Assembly (NCBI GenBank): GCA_020152595.1
Contig: JAIGNY010001494.1
Location: 337,001 to 401,000, forward strand
From: Chiridota heheva
Taxonomy: Eukaryota; Echinodermata; Holothuroidea; Apodida; Chiridotidae
Reading direction: 5' to 3'
DNA length: 64,000 bases
Below, in pieces: positions 2,500 through 59,343 of this stretch. The translations under genes were made by a program, and so were the position numbers. The notes under the pieces were generated by a model. It had not been told where the DNA came from. It searched no databases and was given only the letters and a program-made list of their open reading frames with translations. Positions within the stretch are counted from its first letter, which is position 1, and every line of letters starts with the position of its first letter.

Positions 2500-3350
2500 T
2501 TCATAACTTAAGTTATGAATAGTGTACATTCATGTGACTTGGCATATGGGTAGAGGACATGAGTACTGATCAAAGGAGCATGATTGGGGGCTGTGTGTGC
2601 ATACTAATTAGCTTATTTGCATATCAATGAAAATATTTGTATCTATGATATCCTTTAGATTAAAGTGGGAGTGTAGATTGTATTTGTACAAATGATCATA
2701 TATGTGAAGACCATTGTCTACACTTAATGGTGAGGTGTAATGTGCATATTAATAAGGTTATTTGCATAATAATAGACTTGCATAAAATGTTTAATCTTGG
2801 GTAATAACTTGGTACTTGTTACAGGGGTAGAGGACATGGGTACTCTTCAAATGAGCATTATTTGGGGTTGTGTGTGTATACTAATTAGCTTATTTGCATA
2901 ACAATGAAAATATTTGTATCTATGCTATCTCTGAAATTAAAGTGGGAGTGGGGATTTTGTTTGACACAAATGATCATATATGTGAAGAGCATTGTATACA
3001 CTCAATGGTGAGGTGTAGTGTGCATATTAAGTAGATTATTTGCCTAACAATAGACTTGCATACAAAATATTTAACCTGAGATAATAACTTACTATTTGCT
3101 TCAGTGGTAGAAGGCATTGGTACTGTTCAGATGAGCATGATTGGGGGATTGTGTGTGCATAATAATTAGCCTATTTGCATAGCAATGAAAATATTTGTAT
3201 ATGTGGTATCTCTTAAATTAATGTGGGTATGATGATTTTGCTTAAACAAATGATCAAGAGCATTGTTCACACATAATGTAAAGTATAGTATAGTGTGCAT
3301 TTGCTGCAATATGTTTGACCTGAGATCAAAAATATTTGGCTTATGACTTA
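2500..3350. repeat. Tandem repeat, about 278 bp, three diverged units
   Basis: Three copies of a unit containing GTAGAGGACATGAGTACT, then a segment like CTAATTAGCTTATTTGCAT, then ATGAAAATATTTGTAT. The landmark GTAGA..GCAT..GTACT falls near 2549, 2827 and 3107, giving spacings of about 278 and 280. The units differ by many substitutions, so the duplication is old. The unit is AT-rich and non-coding. Confidence 0.8.
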
Positions 3351-3579
3351 CTAACTTCACATTTCTAGTTTTGTTATGATATTGACATTCCTGGCATGAA
3401 TATCAGTCAAAGTGTTTATCTATCTTGCCATGAATAAACAAGCAAATAAAAGTTTCCTGACTTTTAAAGAATGTTAAACTAGGGCTTTGGGAAATATAAA
3501 CAATAAGCAGAATGTGGGGTAGAAGATGACATGATGATAAAGTAGCTGAAAGAATTAGGATGAGGGATTTCATGTGGGA

Positions 3580-3805
3580 CAAGGTGGAATTGTATGTAGG
3601 GCAGGGTGCGGTGGGATGTTGGTCAGGATGTCTTGGCATGTAAGACAGGGTGGATTGGCATGTAGAACAAGGTGGGTTGGCATGTGGAACAGGATGGGTT
3701 GGCATGTGGGACAGGGTTGGTTGGCATGTAGAACAGGGTGGATTGGCATGTGGAACAGGGTGGGTCGACATGTGAGACAGGGCGGAATGGCATGTGGTGG
3801 GATGT
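3580..3805. repeat. 22-bp minisatellite, about ten units
   Basis: The unit resembles GGCATGTGGAACAGGGTGGGTT. Because 22 is not a multiple of three, each frame cycles through the unit, so the open frames here on both strands are repeat translations and not genes. Confidence 0.85.
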
Positions 3806-4477
3806 CATGTGGATTTCAGTTGTGATGGCATGTGGTCATGCAAGTGGTGGAATGACATACAGTATCTGGTTTTCAGGTGTGATTGCATAGAGTATAGATG
3901 TGGGATGACATTTGAGACAGGTCGGGATGGAATGTGGGACGGACAGTCTGTAATACGCATTAGTAGCAGTGAGGGAATTTGTATCATTTCCAGTCTCTAG
4001 TTTGTCATACGTTAAGCAATATTGTTTTGCATAGTTTTACTTTAATGTTATTGTACATTTTTCATGCTGCTTGACTTTGCTTGAGATACATATTTTCTTA
4101 AATTGAAAGTTGTACATGTATTACAATCCAGGATGTATTTCTGGGAATGTGTAGGGGCCGGGGGAGGGTACAGGTTGGAAAGGGGGTTGAATGGCATTCT
4201 TTCATTGACAGGAGCAAGTCAGGGCCTCTCCTTTCTTTGTTATTCAATTGATAGAACTAAAAAAGGTGTTGTAGTTATTAAGACTGCTAGGTTTTACATT
4301 TTCTGAGTTACTTGGGCTTTTTTGGTCTTAAAATATCTGGGACAACTCAAAGATATTTTGAAGCTTGTATAGTGCAAATGAAAATGTAAGTTCATCTTTA
4401 AAAGCTCAAGTAATTTGAAAATCTACCCCTGCTACCCTATTTCTGTATATACTTCCCTAGGAAGTATTTTAAGTATT
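3806..4477. other. No recognised feature
   Basis: After a decaying edge of the 22-bp array (3806-3950, with further GGCATGTGG-like words) I see only AT-rich non-coding sequence. No splice-flanked coding segment matching the missing first exon of the OTUD6B-like gene was found. Confidence 0.4.
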
Positions 4478-4758
4478 TGAACCCATTTGACCCATTTGGT
4501 GATTGTTTTCTGAATCTTTTTAGCCTATATGACCCATTTGGTGATTAATTTCTGAATCTTTTCACCCTATTTGACCCATTTGGTGATTGTTTTATCAATA
4601 TTTTCAGTCTATTTGACCCATCTGGTGATTGTTTTCAAAATCTTTTCAGCCTATTTGACCCATTAGGTGATTGTTTTCAGAATCTTTCCACCCTATTTTG
4701 AACCATTTGGTGATTGTTTTCCTAATTTGTTCACCCTATTTGACCCATTTAGTGACCC
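4478..4758. repeat. 43-bp tandem repeat, about six units
   Basis: The repeated core is TTTGACCCATTTGGTGATTG followed by TTTTCTGAATCTTTTCACCCTA. The first and last units are truncated. The units differ by point changes. Confidence 0.85.
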
Positions 4759-4783
4759 ATAGTACCAGTACCAATACCAGTGC

Positions 4784-5311
4784 CACTAATTCACCATAGT
4801 GATGTTATACATCCATGTAAACCACCAGTGCCACTAATTCACCATAGTGATGTTATATACATCCATGGAAACCACCAGTGCCACTATTTCACCATAGTGA
4901 TGTTATACATCTATTGAAACCACTAGAGCCACTATTCACCATAGTGATGTTATACATCCATTGAAATCTAAAGTGCCACTAATTCACCATGGTGATGTTA
5001 TACATCCATGGAAACCACCAGTGCCACTATTCACCATAGTGATGTTAAACATCCATGGAAACCTTAAGTGCCACTAATTCACCATAGTGATATTATACAT
5101 CCATTGAAAAAACCAGTGCCACTAATTCACCATAGTGATGTTATACATCCATTGAAACCACCAGTGCCACTAATTCACCATAGTGATGTTATACATCCAT
5201 TGAAATCTAAAGTGCCACTATTCACCATAGTGATGTTATACATCCATTGAAAAAACCAGTGCCACTAATTCACCATAGTGATGTTATACATCCATGGAAA
5301 CCTAAAGAGAG
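4784..5311. repeat. 48-bp minisatellite, about eleven units
   Basis: Each unit contains GCCACTAATTCACCATAGTG and GATGTTATACATCCAT. Several units lack a base pair or two (TATTCACC for TAATTCACC). The array ends only about 80 bases before the first recognised exon of the OTUD6B-like gene, so it sits just upstream of that exon's branch point and pyrimidine tract. Confidence 0.9.
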
Positions 5312-5391
5312 AGTTCTGGCTGCATGTGGCAGAAACCAAAGATCGGTTGAATTACTGGATACAGTATCTTGTTTTTTCATTATTTTTGTAG

Positions 5392-5552
5392 ATAAGATTC
5401 AAAGCATCAAGAAATCTGTTCCAAAAGGAGACAAGAAAAGAAAGAAAGAATCCACAGAGGAGATTGCGCGTTTGGAGGTGGAGCTTGATCAACGACATGA
5501 GGAGGAGCTTAAACAGCTTGTGGATCCCCTGAACCATGCAGACGACAAAGAG
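5392..5552 (+). CDS. OTUD6B: OTUD6B-like exon (N-terminal charged region)
   Basis: The acceptor is TTATTTTTGTAG, ending at 5391, behind a good pyrimidine tract. The donor is GAG|GTGTGT at 5553. The exon is 161 bases and begins with the last two bases of a split codon, then reads KIQSIKKSVPKGDKKRKKE and a Glu/Lys-rich stretch ending DDKE. The pattern VPKGDKKRKK matches the conserved early block of OTUD6 proteins. The ATG-led frame that begins at 5247 in the preceding repeat reads through the acceptor and is not the true start. Confidence 0.9.
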
Positions 5553-8500
5553 GTGTGTAATGCTGTTGATTGGATTTCATGTTCAAAAAGATGATCAGGA
5601 TTAATTGTGCAACAAAACACAAAAGAAAATCAGTATGAGATCGATATTAAACAAAATTATGAAGCATGATCTATGTGTAGGTGCAAATCCTTGTCGTCAG
5701 CCACCAGGGTAGACAATCCTTCTTAGATGCATGGACCAAAATAAAAAAATTAACATCCGCCCAGGTGGACTTTTTACGCTCGTTGATGTGGCTGCAAAGT
5801 TTTATTTTATTTTTGTTTGAATTTTTTTCATATAAATACAAATAGATTGTTCAACAGTGTGTCCTCTCTGCTTTTATCATCTGCAACTTACAAATTCTGA
5901 GAAAATGAAACAGGAATATTCGTTTATTACAATTGTTTTCACTATTCAAGCTCGCTTTCTTATCCCACTTTCATCCCTTAAGGTACAGAATCTTACAAAC
6001 TGCGTGATTCATCATTAGTGTCAAACGTGTAGGCTACATAAACAGTGCAATGCAATTCATATCTCATGAGTACAAAGGTTTTTCAACTTGCGAAGAAGTT
6101 ACATAATTATTTTTAGATAAGGAAATATCCAGTATTAAGCTGGTCTCACACCGTAAAACATATTACAATGCACATGCAAATGTGCCCAAGTCCCGAGCGA
6201 GATCTGCTGACCCTTCACAAAACATTTGACCTACATATCATTACCCAACTTTTTTGTATAATGTGTCCAGGGATATGTTACTTCAAATCAAGCTAGACTT
6301 GGATGAATTTATTTAAAGATTTCAGTGGGAAATATTTTTGAAATTCCCTTTACTCAATTTCAGTCTGTAGAAATGTTTCCCCAAAAACAAAAACAATGAA
6401 AATAATTGGAAAAAACCGACAACCCAATCAATTTGCAACTGAGGCCCAATGTTAAGCTATTGCCACACTTTTTCAATAGAAAAGCAAGCCTAACGAGTAG
6501 GTAAAAGTTTCTTTAGATTCGGAACTTTAATGGGTAAAAGAATACCTTGACAACTAAAGCAAAAAATACCAAGGTCCATTTCTAAACCCAAGTGGTCATC
6601 TTAACAAAGGACCATCAATAAACATGTTCACAAGATTAGAAGTGATTATTTTAAAGACATAGCCTCTTCTTCGTCTTTCTGAGGCTTGAAATCCATCAGG
6701 AATCCAACTAATATACTTGACGGTGAAGGCATATCTGCAGATTTTGGTTCAAATTGAGTGACCACTTTGGGCGCTTTAATAATGCAGTAAATAAAGACAT
6801 TACTCTTCATTTACCTGATAAGACTATTGATATGATTCCTAAAAAAGTACATGACGAAGTCAGGAAGCAATTTGGATGTGTAAAGTATGGGATTGCTTCA
6901 GGGGTTGATAATAAGTATTCAAGCACTGTACAAATGAGTTAGCTGATATCTTTACTGTAATACAGTATAAACTGTAACAAGAGTTTCAACCAAAGTACCA
7001 ATCCATCAGTCTGGAAGCATGCCAAAACTTCACCTGTGCCCAAAATAGGTAAACCTGCTTCAGTGAATGATTATAAACCTATTGATAATTCAAGTATCTG
7101 GTTTAATTGCATGCAGAAATATTGCTTCTGTACCATATATCATGCAGTCTATAATTACTTGGGGTGATCAAAACCAATTTGTATACAACAAAGGCATTTC
7201 TTGTCTTGATGCCATACTTATTCTTGTCCATGGTATAGTTTCAGGGCTAAAGAAGAGAGATACTGTACAACCGTTTCCAAAGTCTTGTTTCTTGATTTCT
7301 CAAGCTCCTTTAAGACAGTTTTGCCAAATCGTCTAATCAGTGACTTAACCAATTGCATTGATGAAAAGTGGCTTATTTACTGGCTGGCAGACTTCCTACA
7401 AGGATGGTCTAGACAAGTAAAACTACAAAAAGGTACTCTGATAAATCAGAAATCAAAATTGGTGTTCCACAGGGAGGTCCACTTTTAGCATTATTATTTA
7501 CCATATATATACTGATGGAATTCGTTCAGACTCAAATTGTGCTGTTGTCAAATATGCTGATCATACCACCATTTCGTGCAATATCTCTAAGCAGACCCAT
7601 TGCAAAAATCAAAGTGATTATCAACATTTTGTCAATAGAGTTGTGGATACGTGCGGAGAGAAAAATCTGCTTTTTAGCCCAAGAAAAACAAAGGAAATGG
7701 TTTTTGAAAATATAAAAACATAAAACATAAAGTGTTGATTGAAACAAAGAATGAGAGAATGCTTATTTGTGGTGATTGTGTCGAACGTACGTCCTGTACA
7801 ACCTATCTGGGAGTTTGCATCGATAACAAGTTATCGTTTTTTAACCATATTTTGAAGATGGTGTTCAAAGTGTACTATATTGTCTCTACATTAACCTATA
7901 TCGTTTCTTATTTCCCTCCTAAAACATCGTTACAACATCGTTACGTGCATTGAGAGCAACGTGAATTCTGTATCTTCTTTAAACCTTTTCATTTACATTT
8001 TATTTCCGCTTTTCACCTTAAATTTTGTTTCATTCTTTTTTTTTCGGGATTTTTTTTCTGTGGATGGGCGTCTGCTTTCGGTAAGACCGTTTCTTTTGTT
8101 TTTTCCCTCCTGCTTTGTCCAGATTTTCACACCCTTATCGTTACTATACAGTGGTCCTCCTATAGTAGTTCCACGTTTTTTTTTCTCGTTGCCTCGGTTC
8201 TCTTGGCCCTTGGTTTTTTTTCAATATGATGAAACGCTTGTGCATTGACCTTGACCCTCCCTCCCCTCCCCGTGACGCACCTGCTACCTCCACTGACCAT
8301 TCTTCAGCCCCATTCCCAAAAATCTTAATCATACATGCCACCAACAAACAAGAAAGCTTTAAAAAAGTTTCCCCCTTCCTCATACACAAAGCGCTCTACG
8401 GCCTTGTCACCTCCCCAAGGTCTCTACCCTCAGGTCCGGCAATCTCCTGGTGTACTGCGCCAGGGACACTCAAGCTACCACCCTTTTCTCCACCAAAACC

Positions 8501-11500
8501 CTAACAAACACTGGTATCGACATTACAGTCACCCCCCACTGTTCCCTGAACTCCAGCAAAGGCGTCATAAGAACCAGAGACCTAGCTTACTTGACCGATG
8601 ATGACCTCGTAGAGGAACTGGCTAGCCAACATGTCACTGAAGCCCGTCGTCTCGTTCTTAAGAGAGACAGAGCTGAAACATCCCATTTTCCTTACTTTCG
8701 CCACACCAACTCTCCCATCCCACATCATTGCCGGCCACCTAAGAATCCCAGTCGCCTCATACATTCCCAACCCTCTACGTTGTCATAATTTCCAGAGGTA
8801 TGGCCATGGGAAAAATTCCTGCTGCAACCAAGCGCGCTGTGGTAACTGCGGAGCCCTAGACCATGACAACACCTCTTGCACCAACACCCCACTCTGCGCA
8901 AATTGCGACGGTAATCACCCAGCCAACCATCCCTCCTTCTCGAAAGACTGCCCCACCTGGCTTCAGGAAAAACAAATAACTAAACTTAAAACCCTTAATC
9001 CCAACATAACTTACCCAGAGGCCAGCCTGAGGAAGCGGTTCCTCGCTTCCCTCTACACCGAGCCTTCCTACTCGAGCGCAGTCTCCTCTAACACCAATAC
9101 CGCCCCCTTAACACAGCTAACACAACTAAAACTGACTCACATGCCCAAACCGACTTCACCTGGCTCTTCTTATACCTAGTCCTAAGCCCATCACTATTGC
9201 CAACAACCCAACCACACCCAATACCCAAACCACCTCCACCACCACTTTTTTTCTCAACCTCCCTTCCTTCTCTAAAGCCCCCGCCATCCCCTACACCAAC
9301 ACTTCTAATACCATCATACATCAAACTAAAACCAACCAGGCTAACAATCAACAGAGCAACCAACAAACAACCAACCAACAAACAACCAATCACCAAACAA
9401 CAAATAGCCCACCACCCAAACCCACATGTATGACACTGAAGAGAATAATTGTTCGATTACCGAACACACCAATCATACTTCTCGTCCAACTTTCAAAAAC
9501 AATTTCTCCCAAAGAAAAAGATCCAAAGAAAAAACAAGCCAACCCAAACCCAACAGATCTTCCTCCAGATAACCCCCTGCCACCTTATGGCATGCACCAC
9601 AAACAATTACAATAACACCCACAACATTATTCAATGGAACATCAGAAGCCTTAAGGCCAATTCGGAAGAAGTCAACCTACTGGCCACCACCTTCAACCCA
9701 GTCATCTTCTGACTACAAGAAACCTTAAAAACCACTGACCATTACTCTCTCAATAACTTCACTTGCTACCATAAACTTCAAGTGGACACTAACAAGGCCT
9801 GTGGGGGCGTCTCCATTCTTGTAAGACACGATATTGCACACAGCCCAGTTCATGTGAACACTGACCTTCAGGCCATCTGTATATCTATCTCCCTCCTCAA
9901 AACTATCACTCTTTGCAATATCTATCTCCCCCCCCCTCCCCCAACGCCAACATTTAACCAACCAGCCTTAACAACCTCATCTCTCAGCCTCCCACCCCCT
10001 TCATCTTTCTTGGTGACTTTAACGCCCACAATCCCCTGTGGGGCTCCAATACCATCACCCCCAGAGGCAAGCTCATTGAAAACACTCTTCGACAGCACAG
10101 CCTGTCCTTGCTCAACACTAACTCCCCAAGCTACCCTCATCCTGCTACAGGCTCCCTCACCTGTATTGACCTGTCTATCTGTTCCCCTAACCTCCTCCTT
10201 GATTTTTCCTGGAAGGTGTGGTAGTGACCATTACCCTCTTCTTTTTCACTCCAACCTTCAAACCCCCACTGACCACACCCCCAATTGGAAGCGCGAGAAA
10301 GCCAACTGGCTCCTTTTTGAAACCCTCTGCGACACACACCTCTCCCCCCCCCCTTCTCCTCGAGGATAATGATCCCATGTCAGTTTTCAGTAACATTCTT
10401 ATTAACATTGCCACCTGCTCCATTCCCCAAACCTCCAAATCCCCTAATCACCCTAAACCCCTAATCATCCCCCAAACCCCTGGTTCACTGATGACTGCAA
10501 AACCGCAATCAAGAACAGGAAAAGGGCCCTCAGGAACTTCAAAACTAATGCAACCACCCACAACCTCAACCTCTTTCGCATCAACCGAGCAAAAGCCAGG
10601 CGCACTATCAAGGACAGTAAAACCAACACTTGGAACAACTTCATCTCTTCTCTCACCACTAACACCCCTACTAAGAAGATTTGGAGAATGGTTAATAGCT
10701 TCCACGGCAGGGTGAGCAAGTCTCCCATCTCCCATCTCTCTTGAAATAATAACCTTCTCACCACAAAAAAGGACATCGTTAACCACCTTGCTGCCTATTT
10801 CAGCAACATCTCGTCCTCAACCAACTACCCCAATGCTTTCAAAGCCAAAAAAGCTTACGATGAAAGCCAGAGTATCACCTTTTCTTCCAACAACACCAAG
10901 AGCTACAACACCCCTCTCACCCTATCTGAATCAAATCAAGCCATCCATGATGCTGGCTGCACCTCTTATGGCCCAGATAACATTCTCTACCAATTCCTGA
11001 AACCCCTCTCCAACAAGGCCACCACTACCCTACTCACAATCCTCAACCACATCTGGTCCTCACATGCCTTTCCCCCTATCTGGAAGACATTTATCATCAA
11101 CCCCGTCGCCAAACCGAGAAAGGACAGTACCGACCCCTCCAGCTACCGCCCCATCGCCCTCACCTGCTGTTTCTGTAAAATTATGGAAAGGATCATTAAC
11201 CAGAGACTAAACTGGTTTCTTGAGACCAATAGAATCCTCTCACCTCACCAAAGCAGCTTCCGGAAATGTTGCAATACCCTGGACCAGTTAATTACTCTCC
11301 ACACCGCTATCCGGAAATCCTTTGCAAAAAAGGAACACCTCATTGCCATCTTTTTCGACCTCGAGAAAGCTTTTGACACTATTCAGAAATACGGCATTAT
11401 CCGCAAACTTTACTATCAGCCTCAGAGGCCACCTTCCCACCTTTATTCATAACTTCCTCTCACCCAGGCAGTTTCAAGTCCGTATTGGCCACACCATCTC

Positions 11501-23500: not shown

Positions 23501-26500
23501 GAGGGATCATGCTGAGGAGTTCAGGTACTTCCTGTCTAAGCCAGAGACAGGAGATCCTTACAATGAAGGTTAGTCTTATGGATGCATAATAAGTAACAGA
23601 GAAGGAATGCCAAAAGAGGAATTAAGGGTAATGGCTTTATGATTTAAACTGAATCTAGTTCAATTTTAAGAAGACTTCTGTGGTCTAGGGGTCATAGCAT
23701 TAGCTTGGCAGGCTAGAAGTCCCGGGTTTAATTCCCGGTGGGTCTTCATGCACCAGTTCTTCACAACTGGTTTATTAAATGACTGACATCTCTATTAGCT
23801 TAACTGTTGATATAAAATACCCAAACTTCTTCTCTTCTTGGCTAAGCTTCGCGAACGAAGATTTAGGAAGGATTTCCATGTTGACTACAGGCATGCTGAT
23901 GGCTGTCGAGACTTATCCTAGACAGGCAAACCCTACCACAGGCATGCTGATGGCTGACGAGACCTCTCCTAGACAGGCAAACCCTGCCACAGGCATGCAG
24001 AGCACAGGCAAACCCTACCACAGGCACGCTGATGGCTGATGAGACCTCTAGACAGGCAAACCCTGCCACAGGCACTGATGGCTGATGAGACCTCCCTGAC
24101 AGGCAAACAGGCATGCTGATGGCTGACGAGACCTATGCTAGACAGGCAAACCCTGCCACAGGCATGCTGATGGCTGATGAGACCTATGCTAGACAAGCAA
24201 ACCCTACCACAGGCATGCTGATGGCTGACGAGACCTCTCCTAGACAGGCAAACCCTGCCACAGGCACGCTGATGGCTGACGAGACCTATGCTAGACAGGC
24301 AAACCCTGCCACAGGCATGCTGATGGCTGACTAGACCTATGCTAGACAGGCAAACCCTGCCACAGGCATGCTGATGGCTGATGAGACCTATGCTAGACAG
24401 GCAAACCCTGCCACAGGCACGCTGATGGCTGACGAGACCTATGCTAGACAGGCAAACCCTGCCACAGGCATGCTGATGGCTGATGAGACCTATGCTAGAC
24501 AGGCAAACCCTACCACAGGCATGCTGATGGCTGACGAGACCTCTCCTAGACAGGCAAACCCTGCCACAGGCACGCTGATGGCTGACGAGACCTATGCTAG
24601 ACAGGCAAACCCTGCCACAGGCATGCTGATGGCTGATGAGACCTATGCTAGACAGGCAAACCCTACCACAGGCATGCTGATGGCTGACGAGACCTCTCCT
24701 AGACAGGCAAACCCTGCCACAGGCACGCTGATGGCTGACGAGACCTCTCCTAGACAGGCAAACCCTACCACAGGCATGCTGATGGCTGATGAGACCTATC
24801 CTAGACAGGCAAACCCTGCCACAGGCATGCTGATGGCTGATGAGACCTATGCTAGACAGGCAAACCCTACCACAGGCATGCTGATGGCTGACGAGACCTC
24901 TCCTAGACAGGCAAACCCTACCACAGGCATGCTGATGGCTGATGAGACCTCTCCTAGACAGGCAAACCCTGCCACAGGCATGCTGATGGCTGACTAGACC
25001 TATGCTAGACAGGCAAACCCTACCACAGGCACGCTGATGGCTGACGAGACCTATGCTAGACAGGCAAACCCTGCCACAGGCACGCTGATGGCTGATGAGA
25101 CCTCTCCTAGACAGGCAAACCCTGCCACAGGCATGCTGATGGCTGACTAGACCTATGCTAGACAGGCAAACCCTGCCACAGGCATGCTGATGGCTGACGA
25201 GATCTCTTCTAGACAGGCAAACCCTACCACAGGCATGCTGATGGCTGATGAGACCTCTCCTAGACAGGCAAACCCTGCCACAGGCATGCTGATGGCTGAC
25301 TAGACCTCTCCTAGACAGGCAAACCCTGCCACAGGCATGCTGATGGCTGACTAGACCTCTCCTAGACAGGCAAACCCTGCCACAGGCATGCTGATGGCTG
25401 ACTAGACCTCTCCTAGACAGGCAAACCCTGCCACAGGCATGCTGATGGCTGACTAGACCTATGCTAGACAGGCAAACCCTACCACAGGCACGCTGATGGC
25501 TGACGAGATCTCTTCTAGACCGGCAAACCCTACCACAGGCATGCTGATGGCTGATGAGACCTCTCCTAGACAGGCAAACCCTGCCACAGGCACGCTGATG
25601 GCTGACTAGACCTATGCTAGACAGGCAAACCCTGCCACAGGCATGCTGATGGCTGACGAGACCTATGCTAGACAGGCAAACCCTACCACAGGCACGCTGA
25701 TGGCTGACGAGATCTCTTCTAGACAGGCAAACCCTACCACAGGCATGCTGATGGCTGACTAGACCTATCCTAGACAGGCAAACCCTACCACAGGCATGCT
25801 GATGGCCGATGAGACCTCTCCTAGACAGGCAAACCCTGCCACAGGCATGCTGATGGCTGACTAGACCTATGCTAGACAGGCAAACCCTGCCACAGGCATG
25901 CTGATGGCTGACTAGACCTATGCTAGACAGGCAAACCCTACCACAGGCACGCTGATGGCTGACGAGACCTATGCTAGACAGGCAAACCCTACCACAGGCA
26001 TGCTGATGGCTGACGAGACCTATGCTAGACAGGCAAACCCTGCCACAGGCACGCTGATGGCTGACGAGACCTATGCTAGACAGGCAAACCCTGCCACAGG
26101 CATGCTGATGGCTGACGAGACCTCTCCTAGACAGGCAAACCCTGCCACAGGCATGCTGATGGCTGACTAGACCTATGCTAGACAGGCAAACCCTGCCACA
26201 GGCACGCTGATGGCTGACGAGACCCTGCTAGACAGGCACCCTGCCCGGGCACACATGGGCATGCTGATGGCTGCCACAGGCACGCTGAGACCTATCCTAG
26301 ACAGGCAAACCCTGCCACGGGCATGCTGATGGCTGACTAGACCTATGCTAGACAGGCAAACCCTACCACAGGCACGCTGATGGCTGACTAGACCTATGCT
26401 AGACAGGCAAACCCTGCCACAGGCACGCTGATGGCTGACGAGACCTCTCTTAGACTGGCAAACCCTGCCACAGGCATGCTGATGGCTGACGAGACCTATG

Positions 26501-29500
26501 CTAGACAGGCAAACCCTGCCACAGGCACGCTGATGGCTGACGAGACCTATGCTAGACAGGCAAACCCTGCCACAGGCACGCTGATGGCTGACGAGACCTC
26601 TCCTAGACAGGCAAACCCTGCCACGGGCACGCTGATGGCTGACGAGACCTATGCTAGACAGGCAAACCCTGCCACAGGCACGCTGATGGCTGACGAGACC
26701 TATCCTAGACAGGCAAACCCTGCCACGGGCATGCTGATGGCTGACTAGACCTATGCTAGACAGGCAAACCCTACCACAGGCACGCTGATGGCTGACTAGA
26801 CCTATGCTAGACAGGCAAACCCTGCCACAGGCACGCTGATGGCTGACGAGACCTCTCTTAGACTGGCAAACCCTGCCACAGGCATGCTGATGGCTGACGA
26901 GACCTCTCCTAGACAGGCAAACCCTGCCACAGGCACGCTGATGGCTGACGAGACCTATGCTAGACAGGCAAACCCTGCCACAGGCACGCTGATGGCTGAT
27001 GAGACCTCTCCTAGACAGGCAAACCCTACCACAGGCATGCTGATGGCTGACTAGACCTATGCTAGACAGGCAAACCCTGCCACAGGCACGCTGATGGCTG
27101 ACGAGACCTCTCCTAGACAGGCAAACCCTACCACAGGCACGCTGATGGCTGACGAGACCTCTCCTAGACAGGCAAACCCTACCACAGGCACGCTGATGGC
27201 TGACGAGACCTATCCTAGACAGGCAACCTGCCACGGGCATGCTGATGGCTGACGAGATCTCTTCTAGACAGGCAAACCCTACCACAGGCATGCTGATGGC
27301 TGACGAGACCTATGCTAGACAGGCAAACCCTGCCACAGGCACGCTGATGGCTGACGAGACCTATCCTAGACAGGCAAACCCTACCACAGGCATGCTGATG
27401 GCCGATGAGACCTCTCCTAGACAGGCAAACCCTGCCACAGGCACGCTGATGGCTGATGAGACCTATGCTAGACAGGCAAACCCTAACACAGGCATGCTGA
27501 TGGCTGACGAGACCTATCCTAGACAGGCAAACCCTGCCACAGGCACGCTGATGGCTGACGAGACCTATGCTAGACAGGCAAACCCTACAACAGGCATGCT
27601 GATGGCTGACTAGACCTATGCTAGACAGGCAAACCCTGCCACAGGCATGCTGATGGCTGACGAGACCTATCCTAGACAGGCAAACCCTGCCACGGGCATG
27701 CTGATGGCTGACGAGACCTATGCTAGACAGGCAAACCCTACCACATGCACGCTGATGGCTGACTAGACCTATGCTAGACAGGCAAACCCTACCACAGGCA
27801 TGCTGATGGCTGACGAGACCTCTCCTAGACAGGCAAACCCTACCACAGGCATGCTGATGGCTGATGAGACCTCTCCTAGACAGGGCCACAGGCACGCTGA
27901 TGGCTGACTAGACCTATGCTAGACAGGCAAACCCTGCCACAGGCATGCTGATGGCTGATGAGACCTATGCTAGACAGGCAAACCCTGCCACAGGCACGCT
28001 GATGGCTGACTAGACCTATGCTAGACAGGCAAACCCTGCCACAGGCACGCTGATGGCTGATGAGACCTATTCTGGACAGGCAAACCCTGCCACAGTGGCT
28101 GGTGGCTGACGACACCTCTCCTGGACAGCAAACCAAACCACGACAGCTGCCGGTAATGGTTGGGTTGTTGGTTGGTGCTGGTGTGTTTTTTCTACGTCTT
28201 TCCTTCTCCTGAATGCTGGATCTTCTTTTTATCTCGAAAGTGAAAGTTGATATTTTAACTAGCAGCCTGAGCCTCCCATTTGCGATGGTTGATCTTGCAC
28301 ATTATGAGGTCTACTTCCCATTTGCGATGGTTGATCTTGCACATTATGAGGTCTGCTTCCCATTTGCGATGGTTGATCTTGCACATTATGAGGTCTGCTT
28401 CCCATTTGCGATGGTTGATGTCGCACATTATGAGGTCTGCTTCCCATTTGCGATGGTTGATCTTGCACATTATGAGGTCTGCTTCCCATTTGCGATGGTT
28501 GATCTTGCACATTATGAGGTCTGCTTCCCATTTGCGATGGTTGATCTTGCACATTATAAGGTCTGCTTCCCATTTGCGATGGTTGATGTCGCACATTATG
28601 AGGTCTGCTTCCCATTTGCGATGGTTGATCTTGCACATTATAAGGTCTGCTTCCCATTTGCGATGGTTGATGTCGCACATTATGAGGTCTGCTTCCCATT
28701 TGCGATGGTTGATCTTGCACATTATAAGGTCTGCTTCCCATTTGCGATGGTTGATCTCGCACATTATGAGGTCTGCTTCCCATTTGCGATGGTTGATCTT
28801 GCACATTATGAGGTCTGCTTCCCATTGCGATGGTTGATCTGCACATTATGAGGTCTGCTTCCCATTTGCGATGGTTGATCTTGCACATTATGAGGTCTGC
28901 TTCCCATTTGCGATGGTTGATGTCGCACATTATAAGGTCTGCGTCCCATTTGCGATGGTTGATCTTGCACATTATGAGGTCTGCTTCCCATTTGCGATGG
29001 TTGATCTTGCACATTATGAGGTCTGCTTCCCATTTGCGATGGTTGATCTTGCACATTATGAGGTCTGCTTCCCATTTGCGATGGTTGATCTTGCACATTA
29101 TAAGGTCTGCTTCCCATTTGCGATGGTTGATCTTGCACATTATGAGGTCTGCTTCCCATTTGCGATGGTTGATGTCGCACATTATAAGGTCTGCTTCCCA
29201 TTTGCGATGGTTGATCTTGCACATTATGAGGTCTGCTTCCCATTTGCGATGGTTGATCTTGCACATTATAAGGTCTGCTTCCCATTTGCGATGGTTGATC
29301 TCGCATGGTTGATTATGAGGTCTGCTTCCCATTTGCGATGGTTGATCTTGGTTGATGTCTTGCACATTATGAGGTCTGCTTCCCATTTGCGATGGTTGAT
29401 CTTGCACATTATGAGGTCTGCTTCCCATTTGAGGTCTGCTTCCCATTTGCGATGGTTGATCTTGCACATTATGAGGTCTGCTTCCCATTTGCGATGGTTG

Positions 29501-32500
29501 ATGTCGCACATTATAAGGTCTGCTTCCCATTGCGATGGTTGATCTGCACATTATGAGGTCTGCTTCCCATTTGCGATGGTTGATGTCGCACATTATAAGG
29601 TCTGCGTCCCATTTGCGATGGTTGATCTTGCACATTATGAGGTCTGCTTCCCATTTGCGATGGTTGATCTTGCACATTATGAGGTCTGCTTCCCATTTGC
29701 GATGGTTGATGTCGCACATTATGAGGTCTGCTTCACATTTGCGATGGTTGATCTTGCACATTATGAGGTCTGCTTCCCATTTGCGATGGTTGATCTTGCA
29801 CATTATGAGGTCTGCTTCCCATTTGTGATGGTTGATCTTGCACATTATGAGGTCTGCTTCCCATTTGCGATGGTTGATCTTGCACATTATGAGGTCTGCT
29901 TCCCATTTGCGATGGTTGATCTTGCACATTATGAGGTCTGCTTCCCATTTGCGATGGTTGATCTTGCACATTATAAGGTCTGCTTCCCATTTGCGATGGT
30001 TGATCTCGCACATTATGAGGTCTGCTTCCCATTTGCGATGGTTGATCTTGCACATTATGAGGTCTGCTTCCCATTTGCGATGGTTGATCTTGCACATTAT
30101 GAGGTCTGCTTCCCATTTGCGATGGTTGATCTTGCACATTATGAGGTCTGCTTCCCATTTGCGATGGTTGATCTTGCACATTATGAGGTCTGCTTCCCAT
30201 TTGCGATGGTTGATCTTGCACATTATGAGGTCTGCTTCCCATTTGCGATGGTTGATCTTGCACATTATGAGGTCTGCTTCCCATTTGCGATGGTTGATCT
30301 TGCACATTATGAGGTCTGCTTCCCATTTGCGATGGTTGATCTTGCACATTATGAGGTCTGCTTCCCATTTGCGATGGTTGATCTTGCACATTATGAGGTC
30401 TGCTTCCCATTTGAGGCGATGGTTGATCTTGCACATTATGAGGTCTGCTTCCCATTTGCGATGGTTGATCTTGCACATTATGAGGTCTGCTTCCCATTTG
30501 CGATGGTTGATCTTGCACATTATAAGGTCTGCTTCCCATTTGCGATGGTTGATCTCGCACATTATGAGGTCTGCTTCCCGTTGCGATGGTTGATGTCGCA
30601 CATTATGAGGTCTGCTTCCCATTTGCGATGGTTGATCTTGCACATTATGAGGTCTGCTTCCCATTTGCGATGGTTGATCTTGCACATTATGAGGTCTGCT
30701 TCCCATTTGCGATGGTTGATGTCGCACATTATAAGGTCTGCGTCCCATTTGCGATGGTTGATCTTGCACATTATGAGGTCTGCTTCCCATTTGCGATGGT
30801 TGATCTTGCACATTATGAGGTCTGCTTCCCATTGCGATGGTTGATCTGCACATTATGAGGTCTGCTTCCCATTTTCGATGGTTGATGTCGCACATTATAA
30901 GGTCTGCGTCCCATTTGCGATGGTTGATCTTGCACATTATGAGGTCTGCTTCCCATTTGCGATGGTTGATCTTGCACATTATGAGGTCTGCTTCCCATTG
31001 CGATGGTTGATCTGCACATTATGAGGGTCTTTTGCAGCGAGTCTTTTTATCACTTCTTTGGGGCACCTCTTTCACATCTGCCAATACATGATTCACCATA
31101 CAGGATAATATCAGACAGGCGATGGTCCTTCATCTTAGTTACATGGCCTGTCCAGCCCAGCTGGATTTAGAGCAACATACAGTAGCATTGACACTGGTGA
31201 TTGCTGCAGACTCCAGTATTTAATTGTTGGTGATATAGTCACTCCATTGTATGCTGAAGATATTGCGGAGACAACGCTGTTGAGAATGTTCCAGGAGAAA
31301 AACATGACGGCAATGCAGAACCCAAGATTCTGCACACTGAGAAGAGGGTCAAAACAACTGCTCTGTAAACACTGATTTTCGTGTCCGTTTAGAGGTTGTT
31401 ATTATCCCATACATGTTTATGTAGTCTTCCGAAGGTGCTGTTTACCTTGGACAGCCTGTTGTCAACTTTCTTGTCGATCTTGGCATCAGAAGAGATCACA
31501 CGAGCAAGGTAGGTGAACTGGTGAACTGATTTCAGCTTTGTCTGCTTGATGGTGATGCATGGTTTGTGGTATTCTTCCTGGGGAGCAGGCTGGTAGAGAA
31601 CCTCAAGACTTTTTTAGGCTGACCTCAAGTCCAAAAAGCTGTGCAGCCTCAGCAAAGCAAGATGTTATACTTTGCATAGCTATCGCTGTGTGGACAATAA
31701 GGGCGGTGTCATCTGCAAACAGCAGCTCGTGTACGAGCTGTTTCGTAGTCTTGGTATGGGCCTTCAGGCACCTGAGGTGGAAGAGACTGCTGTCTGTATG
31801 GAATCAAATGTAGACACTCTCTTCGAGGTCTTCGTAGGCATGCAGAAGCATCATGCTGACGAGCATACCAACAAATGTGTCTTCCTGAAACATTAAGTGG
31901 TGATTGTTTAAGAATTTACAACTTAAAACCTAGTAATGCAGTCTGACCTGTGAGAGACATATGGCTCGTCTCCTATTTAATGATCCTATAAACAGTCTTT
32001 GACCTATTCAATGATCCTATGAACAGTCTGGTCCTATAAACAGTTTTTGTCCTATTTAATAATCCTCCAAACAGTCTTTGTCCTATCTAATGATCCTACA
32101 AACAGTCTTTGTCCTATTCAATGATCCTATGAACAGTCTGGTCCTATAAACAGTTTTTGTCCTATTTAATAATCCTACAAACAGTCTTTGTCCTATCTAA
32201 TGATCCTACAAACAGTCTTTGTCCTATTTAATGATCCTACAAACAGTCTTTGTCCTATTTAATGATCCTACAAACAGTCTTTGTCCTATTTAATGATCCT
32301 ACAAACAGTCTTTGTCCTATTTAATGATCCTACAAACAGTCTTTGTCCTATTTAATAATCCTATAAACAGTCTTTGTCCTATAAACAGTCTTTGTCCTAT
32401 TTAATGATCCTACAAACAGTCTTTGTCCTATTCAATGATCCTACAAACAGTCTGTATCCTATGTAATGATCCTATAAACAGTCTTTTTCTATGCAATCAA

Positions 32501-35500
32501 TGGATTCTTTTTCTTTGAATAATTGATTAACCAGTTAACAATTCATAATTTAAGAACTTTGTATTTTGCAACATGATAGATATTTCTAAATTATTGATTT
32601 GCACTGTCAGATTATAATATTCACTATCAACATGGTGCATTAAAAGCCTGAAATGTTCCATTTGTAAACAGTTTTGGTCTTTGGTGAAGAAAGAAAAGGT
32701 TATTAAAAAGTAACACATAAAAGTAGAACCAAATATTATGAAAAGTTTAACACTGAAAGTGAATAAGTGAATAAAGTATATAATACATGGAATTATGCAA
32801 CCTTTATGTTCCTTTGGAATCCTTTGGGTGGGGTTATGTATTAGGGCCAAGTGCTATGTAAGCTTGTAACCAGGTTGTTTCTCAGAGGGGCACTAACACT
32901 TCAAGAGAGGATACTTATATATTCTCCATTTGCTATTGATAAATATTGCCCTCTATTATTGTCTCTAAACCATGAGCTAAAAGAATATTTTTACAGACTT
33001 CTGATGCTCATATTTTTAGCTTAGAAACCAGTTTGCTGGATTTGTAATGGGAGAAGAAAAATAATGTTTGATTGTGGAGTACGCAATAAGCAACATCTTG
33101 CAAAAGGTAGACAATGTCAAAGGACTGTTTTAAAGCATTATTGTTGTTAGCTTGTTATATGTGAGTGATTGCATAGACCACACTATTTAAGGATAGCTTG
33201 AAGTTTAATCAACGGCATTCCCTGGAATATGAATATTGGTGCCTTCAATCCCTTTCTTTTCAGAGGAATATGCCAGCTACTGCAATGACATTGCAACCAC
33301 TGCAGCATGGGGAGGCCAACCTGAGGTACACTCTTGTCATGCATTCATTCCACAATTTTTTCCTTTTTATTTCAAATTGTTGTAATTATAGTAATGTTAT
33401 AAGATTTTACATAGCTTCATCAATTGAGATGCACATTACATAAACTGATGATAGAAATAGATCAGGAAAAATGACTTCTACCGTTCTGTCATGAGGTGCT
33501 ATACCCAATATTACTCATACTCTTAAATGACTTCTACCGTTTTGTCATGAGGTGCTATGCCCAATATTACTCATACTCTTAAATGACTTTTACCATTCTG
33601 TCATGAGGTGCTATACCCAATATTACTCATACTCTTAAATGACTTCTACCGTTTTGTCATGAGGTGCTATGCCCAATATTACTCATACTCTCAACAATTT
33701 CACGTTTCCTACCTAACAAGCAAATTATGACAGCCTAAATCTATAAATAGATTGGTATAGTGTGTCCAACTAGATTGGTATAGTGTGTCCAACTAGATTG
33801 GTATAGTGTGTCCAACTTGGATACAGCATGATATAAGAAACCATATTTTGAAACAGTTTGCCAGAATCTTCTTCCTTGAGGGTTGGCTAAAGTTTAATAC
33901 TCCTACTTTGCATGCAGTAAATTAATGGTGTGCCCCTCTTGTCCAATCACATCACAGAAAACAAATCTAGATATACATAAATGAAGTTTGAAACTCCTAT
34001 TCATGCAGTAATGAGTGGTTTCAGACTAATAGTCATATCAGGAATTCTTCAAAAGTTGCGTATATTACTAAGGTATCCTTCACATTGTTTTGGCTCACAA
34101 ACCTCTGGATGTGGTAGCAAATTAGTATTGCAGAACCTACACTCTTGGACAAAACTGTTGGAACAATTCAGCATTTTGAGAACTACATATGTTATAGTGT
34201 TATGTTCCTTTAAACATTATGAGAATTGTACATATTTGGTTGGGGAGGGGAGGATGAGTCAGGTAGTGTTAATTACAAAATGAGAGGGAGGTAGTGCTAA
34301 TTAAAAAAGAAAAGGGAGGGGAATGCGATTGGTAAATACATTGAAGTAGGATAGAGGAATAGGAAACATCTTGAAAACTATGACAATGTTTGAAAAATTA
34401 CAAGCTAGTAAAGTTGTAAAAAGAGGGGTGAAATGACCTACAAAAAAGTCAGGTAATGGAAAGAAATTAAGAGATTAATTGATTATGCGACTTTACTTGT
34501 CAATGTGTATAAAGATTTCACATAATTAGCAGTGCTATACTATATATTCTTCCTGCTATCTTATTTCAAGGATGAATAGCATTTTTATCAATCATATGTT
34601 GCGAGCAACGCAGTGGGGTAGCGAATAATAGGATGGATTTCAAATCATTAGAACATGGATGAAAATTCTGTCGATTACATGAGGGTCATCATTCCCTTTT
34701 ATTTATTCAATTTTTAGCTCAACGAAGTTGAGGTTATTAAATGGGAAATTTCTGTTAACTTTCCTCTCCCAATTTTGAAATGCATCTAGTCAGAGGTTTT
34801 TAACCAAAGACTTATAAAATTTGGCGGTCTTGAAGAGCATGAAAATCTTCACAAGGGGTGTTTTCATTTGTTCATTTACTGTTTGCATACCTCAAATAGA
34901 GCAATATTCATTTCCATGAAAATCTGCAGTCAAATCTGGAAAGTATGTGCTGATGTGTAAATAATTGCCTACAGCTGACTACCGTATTTTCTCTAATAAA
35001 TGCCCCTGGGGCGTTGCATTTGGAAAATGGGGGCGTTTATTCGAGGATAAAGTATGAAGAAAAAAATGTAACTTACAAAAGAACGGCAATTTCTTTTAGG
35101 CCTATGATATTAGTTTCTTTAAGCGATTTTTGTGTTTTTAGCATTATTGTGCATGGATTATTAATGGAATATACTTTTTGCATATTTTCCACTTGGTTAC
35201 GTTCGACTTACAGCCTTTTCAAGTCACATTCGGTAAGTTAAATTTACGTTGTTACATCCTGAAAGTATGAAAAATGACGGGGCTTTATTAGAGGGGGCGT
35301 TTATTAGAGAAAATACGGTATTCACACCAAGGGAAATGATAAGACACCAAGGAGGTACCACTATGTTCACACTACAGTGCACAATATTCTCTGTTGTGTG
35401 GACAGCATGGAATACTATCCCTGTTAATCACCCTCACTTGTTATCTCTGCCCAAGTGACTTGTCTTATTGTTGCAACGTAAAGTAAAATTTTAAACTTTT

Positions 35501-45724: not shown

Positions 45725-48700
45725 GATGAGGGGGTTGGGTAAGGGATGGAGGATGGGATGATGAGTGTGGTGGTGAGGCAATGAGGGTTGTTGGGTGAGG
45801 AGATGAAGGGTGGTGAGTGAGACTGAGGGTGGTGAGAGGCGATGAGGGTGGTGGGTGAGACGATGAGGGTGGTGGGTGAGACTATAATGATGGTGGGTGA
45901 GATGATGAGGGTGGTGGGTGAGACTATGATGATGGTGGGTGAGATGATGAGGGTGGTGAGTGATGTGATGAGGGTGGAGGGTGAGGCGATGAGGGTGAAG
46001 GGTGAGGCAAAGGGTGTGGTGGATGAGGGTGGAGGGTGAGACTGATGGTGGTGGGAGAGATGATGAAGGTGGAGGGTAAGACTATGATGGTGGTGGGAGA
46101 AACGATGAGGGTGTTGAGTGAGGCGATGAGGGTGAGGCGAGGAGGGTGAGACGATGAGGTTGAGACGATGAGGGTGGTGAGTGATGTAATGAGGGTGGAA
46201 GGTGAGGGTGGAGGGTGAGGCAAAGAGTGTTGGGAGAGATGATGAAGGTGGAGGGTGAGACTATGGTGGTGGTGGGAGAGACGATGAGGGTGGTGAGTGA
46301 GGCGATGAGGGTGATGTGAGACTGAGGGTGGTGAGTGATGTGATAAGGGGTGGAGGGTGAGGCGATGAGAGGGAGGAGGGTGAGGCAAAGAGGGTGGTGG
46401 GTGAGACGATGAGGATGGGTGAGACTGAAGGTGGTGGGTGACACGATGAGGGTAGTGAGTGACGTGATGAGGGTGGTGATTGAGACTAGGTTGGAGGCTG
46501 AGACGATGGTGTGTATGAAACGAGGGTGGTGAGTGAGGCAATGAGGGATGGTGGGTGAGACAATGACGGTGGTGGGTGAGACGATGAGGGTGGATGGTGA
46601 GGCGATGAGGGTGGTGGGTGAGACGATGAGGGTGGTGGGTGAGACGAGGGTGGCAGGTGAGACTTAAAGGGTGGTGGGTGAGACGAGGGTGATGATTGAG
46701 ATGATGAGGGTGGTAGGTGAGACTGAGGATGGTGGGTAAGACTTAGGATGGTGGGTGAGATGATGAGGGTGGTGAGTGAGATGATGAGGGTGGTGGGTGA
46801 GACTATTAGGGTAGTGGGTGAGAGTGGGTGAGACGAGACTATGAGGATGGTAAATGAGGCAATAAGGGTGGTGAGTGAGGCGATGAGGGTGGTGGGTGAG
46901 ACAAGGGTGGTGAGGCGATGAGGGTGGTGAGAGAGGGGTGTTGAGTGAGGAGATGATGGTGGTTGGTGAGGGGTGGTTGGTGAGGGGTGGTTGGTGAGGG
47001 GTGGTTGGTGAGGGGTGGTGAGTGAGGGGTGGTGAGTGATGGGTGGTGAGTGAGGAGATGATGGTGGTGAGTGAGGGGTGGTGAGTGAGGAGATGATGGT
47101 ATTTGGTGAGGGGTGGTGAGTGAGGCAATGAGGGTGGTGAGTGAGGCGATGAGGGTGAAGGGTGAGACGATGAAGGTGGTGAATAAGGTAATAAGGGTGG
47201 TGAGTAAGACGATAAGGGTGGTGGGTGAGGCGATGGGGTAGTGGTTGAAATGATGAGGATGGTGAGTGAGGCAATGAGGGTGGTAAGTGAAACAATGGAG
47301 TGGTGAGTGAGACGATGAGGGTGGTGGGTGAGATGCTATGATGATAGTGGGTGAGACGATAAGGGTGGTGAGTGATGTGATGAGGGTGGTGAGTAAGGCG
47401 ATGAGGGTGGTAGGTGAGGCGATGGGGTGGAGGGGGAGGCAAAGAGTGGTGGGTGAGACAATGAGGGTGGAGGGTGAGACTGATGGTGGTGGGAGAGATG
47501 ATGAAGGTGGAGGGTGAGACTGATGGTGGTGGGAGAGACGATGAGGGTGGTGAGTGAGGCGATGAGGGTGAGGCAAGGAGGATGAGGCGAGGAGGGTGAG
47601 ACGATGAGGGTGGTGAATGATGTGATGAGGGTGGTGGGTGAGGCGATGGGGAAGTGATTGAAATGATGAGGGTGGTGAGTAAGACAATGAAGGTGGCAAG
47701 TGAGGCAATGAGGATGGTGGGTGAGGCAATGAGGGTGGTGGGTGAAACAATGAGGGTGGTGAGTGAGGCGATGAGGATGGTGGGTGAGACTGATGATGGT
47801 GGGTGAGACTGATGATGGTGGGTGAGACGATGAGGGTGGTGAGTGATGTGATGAGGGTGGTGGGAGAGATGATGAGGGTGGTGAGTGAGGCAATGAGGGT
47901 GGTAAGTGAAACAATGAGGGTGGTGATTGAGGCGATGAGGATGGTGGGTGAGACTGATGATGGTGGGTGAGACTGATGATGGTGGGTGAGACTGATGATG
48001 GTGGGTGAGACGATGAGGGTGGTGAGTGATGTGATGAGGGTGGTGGGAGAGATGATGAGGATGGTGGGTGAGGCAATGAGGGTGGTAAGTGAAACAATGG
48101 AGTGGTGAGTGAGACGATGAGGGTGGTGGGTGAGATGCTATGATGATAGTGGGTGAGATGATAAGGGTGGTGGTGATGTGATGATGAGGTGGTGAGTAAG
48201 GCGATGAGGGTGGTAGGTGATGCGATGGGGTGGAGGGGGAGGCAAAGAGTGGTGGGTGAGACGATGAGGGTGGAGGGTGAGACTGATGGTGGTGGGAGAG
48301 ATGATGAAGGTGGAGGGTGAGACTGATGGTGGTGGGGGAGACGATGAGGGTGGTGAGTGAGGCGATGAGGGTGAGGCGAGGAGGATGAGGCGAGGAGGGT
48401 GAGACGATGAGGGTGGTGAATGATGTGATGAGGGTGGTGGGTGAGGCGATGGGGAAGTGATTGAAATGCTGATGGTGGTGAGTAAGACAATGAAGGTGGC
48501 AAGTGAGGCAATGAGGATGGTGGATGAGGGTGGTGGGTGAAACAATGAGGGTGGTGAGTGAGGCGATGAGGATGGTGGGTGAGACTGATGATGGTGGGTG
48601 AGACTGATGATGGTGGGTGAGACGATGAGGGTGGTGAGTGATGTGATGAGGGTGGTGGGAGAGATGATGAGGGTGGTGAGTGAGGCTATGAGGGTGAGGC

Positions 48701-50245
48701 GAGGAGGGTGGGACGATGAGGGTGGTGAGTGATGTGATGAGGGTGAGGGTGGAGGGTGAGGCAAAGAGGGTGGAGGGTGAGACGATGAGGATGGTGGGTG
48801 AGACTATAAAGGTGGTGGGTGACACGAGGGTGGTGAGTGAGGCGATGAGGGTGATAGTTGAGACTAGGTTGGAGGCTGAGACAGTGACGGTGTGGATGAG
48901 ACGAGGGTGGTGAGTGAGGCGATGGGGGATGGTGGGTGAGACGATGAGGGTGGTGGGTGAGAGGAGGGTGGCGGGTGAAATTTGGAGGGTGGTGGGTGAG
49001 ACGATGAGTGAGATGATGAGGGTGGAGGGTGAGACTATGGGGGTGGTGGGTGAGATGATGAGGGTGGTGGATGAGAATAAGACGAGACTACGAAGATGGT
49101 AAATGAGGGTGGTGAGTGAGGCGATGAGGGTGGTGAATGAGGCGATGAGGGTGGTGAGTGAGACGAGGATGGTGAGGCGATAAGGTTGGTGAGTGAGGAG
49201 ATGAAAGTGGTCGGTGAGGGGTGGTGAGTGAGATGTGGTTAGTAAGGGGTGGTGAGTGAGGGGTGGTGAGTGAGGGGTGGTGAGTGAGGGATGGTGAGTG
49301 AGGGGTGGTGAGTGAGGGATGGTGAGTGAGGGGTAATGAGTGAGGGGTGGTGGTGAGGGGTGGTGAGTGAGGAGGCGGGTAAGGGGTGATGAGTGAGGGG
49401 CGGCGAGTGAGGGTGATGAGTGAGGAGCGGCGAGTGAGGGCGCCGAGTGAGGGGCGGCGGGTGAGGGCGGCGAGTGAGGGGCCGCGATTGAGGGGCGGTG
49501 AGTGAGGGGCGGTGAGTGAGAAGCGGCGAGTGAGGGGCGGCGAGTGAGGGGCGGCGAGTGAGGGGCGGCGAGTGAGGTGTGGTGAGTGAGGGGTGGTGAG
49601 TGAGGGGTGGTGAGTGAGGAGATGATAGTGGTTGATGAGGAGGTGGTGAGTGAGGCGATGAGGGTGGTGAGTGAGGCGATGAGGGTGGTGGGTGAGACGA
49701 TGAGGGTGGAGGTTGAGGCTGAAGGTGGAAGGTGAGACTGAAAGTGGTGAGTGAGGCGATGAGGGTGGTGAGTGAGGCGGTGAGGGTGGTGGGTGAGATG
49801 ATGAGGGTGGTGAAAGGGATGTGGTTGGTGAGGGGTGGTGAGTCAGGCGATGAGGGTGGTTGGTGAGGGGTGGTGAGTTAGGCGATGAAGGTGGTTAGTG
49901 AGGCGATGATGGTGGTGAGTGAGGCGATGAGTGGTGGGTGAGGCGATGAGAGTGGATGGTTGGTGAGGCGATGAGGGTGGAGGGTGAGGCGTTGGTGGTG
50001 GTGAGTGAGATGATGAGGGTGGAGGGTGAAGCGATGAGGGTGGTGGATGAGGCGATAAAGGTGGTGGTTGAGGGGTGGTGGATGAGGGGTAAAGGGTGAG
50101 ATAATGAGGGTGGTGAGTGAGGCAATGAGTGGTGTGTGAGACGATGAGGATGGTGAGTGAGGTAATGAGGGTGGTGGGTGAGGAGATGTGGGTCAAGTAT
50201 TGGGGAGTGGGTGAGGGCCATTAGGGTGGTGGTTGAGGGTATTGG
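45725..50245. repeat. About 21-bp G/A-rich degenerate minisatellite, 4.5 kb
   Basis: Core words are GGTGGGTGAGACGATGAGGG and GTGAGTGAGGCGATGAGGGT, in units of about 21 bases with many shorter ones. The top strand is almost free of C, apart from the GACGATG/GGCGATG words. A subregion at 46925-47110 and 49190-49330 has 14-bp units (GAGGGGTGGTGAGT), and at 49375-49570 a GGGGCGGCGAGTGA form. A long block is duplicated: the marker AGATGCTATGATGATAGTGG occurs at 47331 and 48133, 802 bases apart. Open frames of up to 779 codons on the minus strand (SPPTTLI-like) are repeat artefacts. Confidence 0.95.
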
Positions 50246-59322: not shown

Positions 59323-59343
59323 TTTTTAAAAACCTTTTTAATA

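Follow-up and report, generated by a model that had tools for sequence, protein, structure and literature searches.

Transposable elements (TEs) yield micro-, mini- and satellite DNAs, with the second open reading frame (ORF2) of long interspersed nuclear elements (LINEs) and CR1 among the sources described in the review PMC9659126, and both that review and PMC6947457 present arguments that TEs disperse tandem repeats. In humans alone, the survey listed in Table 1 of PMC9659126 counts 7276 minisatellites derived from transposable elements. The stretch of DNA analysed here (the window: 64,000 nucleotides of the sea cucumber Chiridota heheva, positions 337,001 to 401,000 of contig JAIGNY010001494.1, in our numbering C1489:337001-401000) contains a dead, 5'-truncated, LINE-like element that carries two long arrays, of 42-bp and 51-bp units, amplified from its own C-terminal codons.

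As in the TE-derived human minisatellites described in PMC9659126, a part of a TE was duplicated and expanded into a tandem array. In contrast to that description, two translated C-terminal sites of one LINE-like family are involved here, the event is recurrent, and inherited and in-place births are apparently separable. PROsat, Pvc 20 and HinfI/SCR1, which the same review gives as LINE-ORF2- or CR1-derived sequences, likewise have a LINE coding part that feeds a tandem repeat; these are satellite DNAs, whereas our units, 42-54 bp in length, are internal to the element and, in the shared cases, preserve the reading frame. The Ogre 3' untranslated region (UTR)/PisTR-A, the DINE central repeats and Tetris illustrate that mobile copies can scatter short tandem repeats that are later expanded (PMC9659126, PMC6947457), but as presented there these repeats lie in UTRs, terminal inverted repeats or central non-coding parts, in contrast to the ORF codons of an element resembling those without long terminal repeats. 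Transposon-born tandem repeats are well known, and the variation here is the double site in an ORF together with two modes of birth. A word search of the open literature (titles and the starts of abstracts) found no LINE ORF with recurrent double minisatellites, the search being too narrow to claim that the case is undescribed. Minisatellite births can here be dated and sorted into retrotransposon-delivered seeds and in-place repeats, and the question of minisatellite origin becomes testable within one element family.

On the minus strand, the element runs from a reverse-transcriptase (RT) remnant through the 42-bp array, a single-copy linker and the 51-bp array to the element tail, with limits at ~31862, where similarity begins on the 5' side, and 23831, in the tail. 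The RT remnant (31050-31862), which is 5'-truncated, frame-broken and marked by a FADDTALI motif, was recognized by its matches in the same genome and by a sub-cut-off match to the RVT_1 domain; stops break it in all three minus-strand frames. Unit counting gives 66 units for the 42-bp array (28274-31026; translation KINHRKWEADLIMC), for which Tandem Repeats Finder (TRF) reports 65.9 copies with 93% matches. The 51-bp array (23887-28146; translation CGRVCLSRIGLVSHQHA) has 80 anchored units, preceded by a degenerate first unit whose end lies at 28146, with TRF reporting 78.9 copies with 91% matches at 24107-28134 and another 2.2 copies at 23887-23998. One RT frame meets the first 42-bp unit at KDSLQKTLIMC, and the frame then shifts because of 1-bp losses in the first units. 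The last 42-bp unit exits as WEAQAAS, in the reading KINHRKWEAQAAS up to a stop, and the linker is read in a different frame as FEIKRRSSIQEKERRRKNTPAPTNNPTIT. An earlier note, written from the letters of the window, had described this order, the edges of the 42-bp array at TLIMC and WEAQAAS and the basic character of the linker, all of which agree with our measurements.

The genome (1.1 Gb, 3744 contigs) returned at least 44 matches to the RT part used as a DNA query, the window included, the best of the others by score being 81% over 811 bp. The single-copy 3' end used as a second DNA query recovered further copies, and counts from the genome searches are lower bounds. In the 43 copies that were read, window copy included, the unamplified order could be assembled by eye from translations of the single-copy relatives: ...KKTLTTCKIDH.QWEAQAADRNAW..TVKSATSAFETERRSSVEEKRR..., a basic proline-rich linker, TFTCSRCGRVCLSRIGLVSHQRAC and the tail. 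Relatives hold each motif once and in the same order, with linker and tail alike; locus L033, for example, reads ...MDHHQWEAEAADCNA, a stop and RQTVKSATSAFETERRSSVEEKRRHTCRKNLPAPTNNPTCNRCGRVCLSRIGLVSHQHACSHRG, such a stop being present in most copies. Of the assessable copies, 22 of 31 at the site of the 51-bp array and 24 of 32 at the site of the 42-bp array (hereafter the 51-bp site and the WEA site) are in the single-copy state. Because relatives carry both motifs singly and in the order that had been predicted, both units come from the element's own codons, as the earlier note had proposed, and the search for relatives brought up neither a contrary arrangement of the C-terminal motifs nor arrays predating the insertion.

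A star alignment showed the window copy to contain three correctly ordered single-copy segments, at 31245-31013 (A), 28260-28152 (B) and 23890-23831 (C), all on the minus strand. Segment A, directly before the WEA site, aligns to a single-copy relative with a score of 267 and a coverage of 0.98; segment B, the basic ORF linker, aligns to a relative's linker with a coverage of 0.91, and segment C, the ORF end and 3' tail, to a relative's tail with a coverage of 0.80. The array units are themselves homologous to single-copy internal element sequence, and element sequence flanks both arrays. Together, these comparisons support the reading of both arrays as amplified C-terminal codons of one element. 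That two unrelated minisatellites pre-existed and the retrotransposon inserted alongside them has the array-rich surroundings in its favor and is scarcely credible in view of this homology; arrays older than the insertion were rejected, as segments A, B and C frame both arrays in element order.

Amplification was found to recur in the family. The earlier note had regarded two amplifications within one dead element as undescribed; 12 arrays (at least 3 units) occupy the same two sites, within 10 of the 43 copies, and the window is not unique. The 51-bp site was assessed in 31 copies, the 3' ends of the other 12 being lost, interrupted or degenerate. Seven carry arrays: the window (C1489) with 80 anchored units, C1054 with 108, C661 with 64, C2601 with 40, C83 with 12, C2628 with 10 (partly 57-bp) and C2708 with 17 in two blocks. 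Two more, C3063 and C3151 (first unit partly lost), have two units, and 22 are single. At the WEA site, assessed in 32 copies (in the remaining 11 the start or the site was missing, interrupted, poorly aligned or unplaced in the list), we found five arrays of 42, 50 or 54 bp: 66 units of 42 bp in the window, 9, 14 and 10 units of 54 bp in C1054, C3675 and C3259, respectively, and an array of 50-bp units spanning ~8.6 kb in C1907, of which the two ends were read. Duplications comprise two units in each of C3283 and C3063 and a rearranged duplicate in C803; 24 copies are single. A second 42-bp array was not found in the genome, the two non-window sequences among three candidates both being single units.

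The two element copies L029 and L032 appear to be interrupted by foreign sequence, one between the linker and the 51-bp site and one within the WEA site. A third array site lies upstream of the WEA site, where 8 copies of a 23-bp unit derive from the codons for DHRLPKIV (L042, 141-324 on the locus reverse complement). The 23-bp and 50-bp arrays share one copy, C1907, and amplification by whole codons, which the earlier note had suggested, does not hold as a rule. Downstream of element copy L025, an array of 15-bp units extends over 7.7 kb (1766-9501 on the locus reverse complement) to the end of the fetched stretch.

A duplication that arose after its insertion had decayed will necessarily carry that copy's private mutations in first and internal units alike. 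Across the seven 51-bp arrays, private substitutions number 25 in the first units (1 to 7 each) and 8 in the internal consensuses (0 to 3 each); in the window, the unit scored as first is actually the second, behind a more degenerate true first unit. The only private substitution common to the first unit and the interior is T21, at 2 of the 7 loci; single copies at this site have a mean of 2.7 private substitutions, with T21 in 2 of 22. The 54-bp arrays share none, with private changes in the first unit and the interior numbering 2 and 0 in L011, 0 and 2 in L024, and 5 and 1 in L031, while the two-unit 54-bp states share one base each, A27 in L017 and A20 in L040. The split between first and internal units is old in both types, and the 51-bp duplication is probably no younger than the window insertion. 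The other two arrays behave differently. In the 50-bp array (10 units read), all three private consensus changes also occur in the first unit. In the 42-bp array, the first unit shares the sole scorable private change (the other position is a gap) and the last unit shares both. The window 42-bp array looks like a local birth, later than the 51-bp duplication, and both it and the C1907 50-bp array were probably born in place after decay.

A single phase is found at nine 51-type loci (7 arrays and 2 two-unit states), wherever the junction is readable, and another one for the 54-bp arrays and duplications of L011, L024, L031, L017 and L040, L016 being a rearranged duplicate. The homology available at the breakpoints, measured in L012, is 4 bp for the 51-bp and 2 bp for the 54-bp joint. 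Within the 330-bp stretch of L012, direct repeats spaced 15-100 bp apart number 54 at a length of 4 bp and 16 at greater lengths, and the longest, TGCCTGT at a spacing of 35, is unused. Such short breakpoint homologies leave the recurrence of identical 51- and 54-bp joints unexplained. In addition, 5 of the 6 54-type loci (L016, L017, L024, L031 and L040) have one or more units with A27, a base absent from all 24 single copies (Fisher p=4e-5); L029, L032, L043 and L045, which lie outside the WEA count and are readable at the key base, also have no A27. Among 11 array- or duplication-bearing copies (up to 600 bp per side compared; C1907, C2708 and C3151 outside the test), flanks share no similarity, and the 11 carriers are therefore separate insertions. 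For the 51-bp type, the support for common descent of the duplication comes from phase, unit age and T21.

Considering all of this, we hold it fairly probable that the 51- and 54-bp types grew from inherited seeds and the 42- and 50-bp types were born in place. In some mobile copies of the LINE-like family, two C-terminal modules would have been duplicated in tandem and in frame, namely an 18-amino-acid block (54 bp, IDHRQWEAQAADRNAWRQ) and a 17-amino-acid cysteine/histidine block (51 bp, CGRVCLSRIGLVSHQRA), and these short duplications, spread by retrotransposition, would have acted as preformed seeds of minisatellites. Once landed, each may have grown, shrunk or been lost independently through slippage or unequal exchange, giving 2 to ~108 units. 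The window 51-bp array would have grown from a transported seed, and the 42-bp array would be a separate, later local birth from the decayed WEA site, for which the junction suggests an exchange between two AGACC words with a 9-bp loss. More tentatively, the active source LINEs might have encoded tandem C-terminal modules, including the cysteine/histidine (zinc-knuckle-like) block, as a coding variable-number tandem repeat, whose repeat number may have affected binding of the element RNA or target and whose insertions became minisatellite seeds. If this were true, one LINE family would have planted giant minisatellites genome-wide.

Several observations weigh against inherited seeds, and part of them would be expected if each array had been born separately at its locus after insertion, the C-terminal sequence being a hotspot in a genome throughout which short duplications grow into minisatellites. 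In a tree of 35 copies and 405 columns, with 19 of 32 inner branches unresolved, carriers hardly ever group together: the 8 carriers at the WEA site require 8 changes and the 7 at the 51-bp site require 6, and single-copy sisters stand beside carriers (L023/L032, L017/L037, L024/L035). Given this scatter, inheritance needs several losses, or births were repeated. For arrays of this kind, contraction to a single unit is nothing unusual, and seeds may have been lost in this way in the single-copy sisters. Other points are that the L011 54-bp array has no A27 and that in L040 A27 is confined to the first unit; T21 in the 51-bp arrays is no more than suggestive (4 of 7 versus 2 of 22, p=0.018), and interior bases also occur in last units (T21 in the window copy, L011, L022 and L030; A4 in L022). 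Boundary units escape homogenization, which could mimic age if arrays were born shortly after insertion. For the 42-bp array, the dating comes from a single scorable base, and a duplicated ORF was not seen in an active element, with no intact or recent copy found among the 150 of 1449 candidates scored.

Separate births also draw on the locus-specific look of the 42-bp array and of the C1907 50-bp and 23-bp arrays, and on the minisatellite richness of the genome. Counting arrays with a period of at least 10 and at least 5 copies, the flanks of 20 loci (156.6 kb, of which 23.5 kb array) hold 29 arrays in 133 kb of non-array sequence, or 0.22 per kb, and the window minus the element holds 18 in 34 kb, or 0.53 per kb; an array at the 5' edge of the L021 copy overlaps the element limits and is in neither count. 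At these rates, 2.2 (flank) or 5.2 (window) arrays are expected at the two sites against 11 or 12 observed (P 3e-6 to 0.019), in a rough test that assumes 33 copies of 300 bp and whose lower count omits C2708, recovered by the array query alone. The enrichment is clear versus the flank rate and modest versus the window rate. A comparison of the two sites with the RT body (11 versus 1 array, p=0.0096) is crude, with copy numbers assumed, and is not relied on. Against separate births stand the constant phase within nine 51-type loci and within five 54-type loci, with breakpoint homologies of 4 and 2 bp, the restriction of A27 to duplicated sites and, in the 51- and 54-bp arrays, the near absence of private mutations common to first and internal units, and we think it unlikely that every array arose in this way. 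Movement of units from locus to locus through gene conversion or ectopic exchange, instead of retrotransposition of seeds, would likewise yield the cross-locus bases A27 and T21 and would suit the scattered tree. The unrelated flanks of the 11 tested carriers and the lack of A27 in 24 single copies speak against it, and although exchange limited to array units would still fit the flanks, we regard such movement as quite improbable.

For the assignment of the element as LINE-like, protein similarity and the shape of its copies were considered. In Pfam, one 66-amino-acid RT piece matches RVT_1 with E=0.013, below the cut-off; no RVT_1 match was obtained on a second RT piece or on three pieces upstream of a relative. 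Membership of the RTE clade, suggested by the label RTE-like in the earlier note, would call for an apurinic endonuclease, and no endonuclease match was obtained on any of these Pfam-scanned pieces. Dispersed copies have the tail in common, and the 5' starts of similarity vary over ~0.9 kb of a relative. Among the 150 of 1449 candidates scored in the genome (97 matches), none proved intact; the longest open frames listed are 322 amino acids, in a 35% relative, and 281 amino acids, in a close relative with two stops within the match.

The element lies antisense in a plus-strand host intron (23569-33263, splice sites judged by eye). The two flanking exons, typed and joined, match the Pfam OTU domain with E=5.5e-19, and the host gene is presumably OTUD6B (OTUD6B-like). 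A dead 1-kb insertion can in this way grow to a ~8-kb intron block. Just 3' of the element, at 23688-23746 on the plus strand, we noticed a tRNA-like sequence with a short D-arm that scores 28.9 bits versus a gathering score of 29; ARAGORN gave no tRNA there, and it is possibly a tRNA pseudogene or the head of a short interspersed nuclear element. Minisatellites dominate the window from 3571 to 64000, with 18 arrays besides those of the element, 22 kb in total, several of them closely paired (gaps of 21, 50, 108 and 241 bp). Since 4 of 18 other gaps between neighboring arrays are 241 bp or less, the mere closeness of the two element arrays is unremarkable. Two of the window's other arrays were of note: a degenerate, strongly G-skewed 4.4-kb array of GATGAGGGTGGTGGGTGAGAC-like units at 45760-50193 (GC skew ~+0.85), and a 60-bp array with at least 77 copies at 59340-64000, which reaches the window end.

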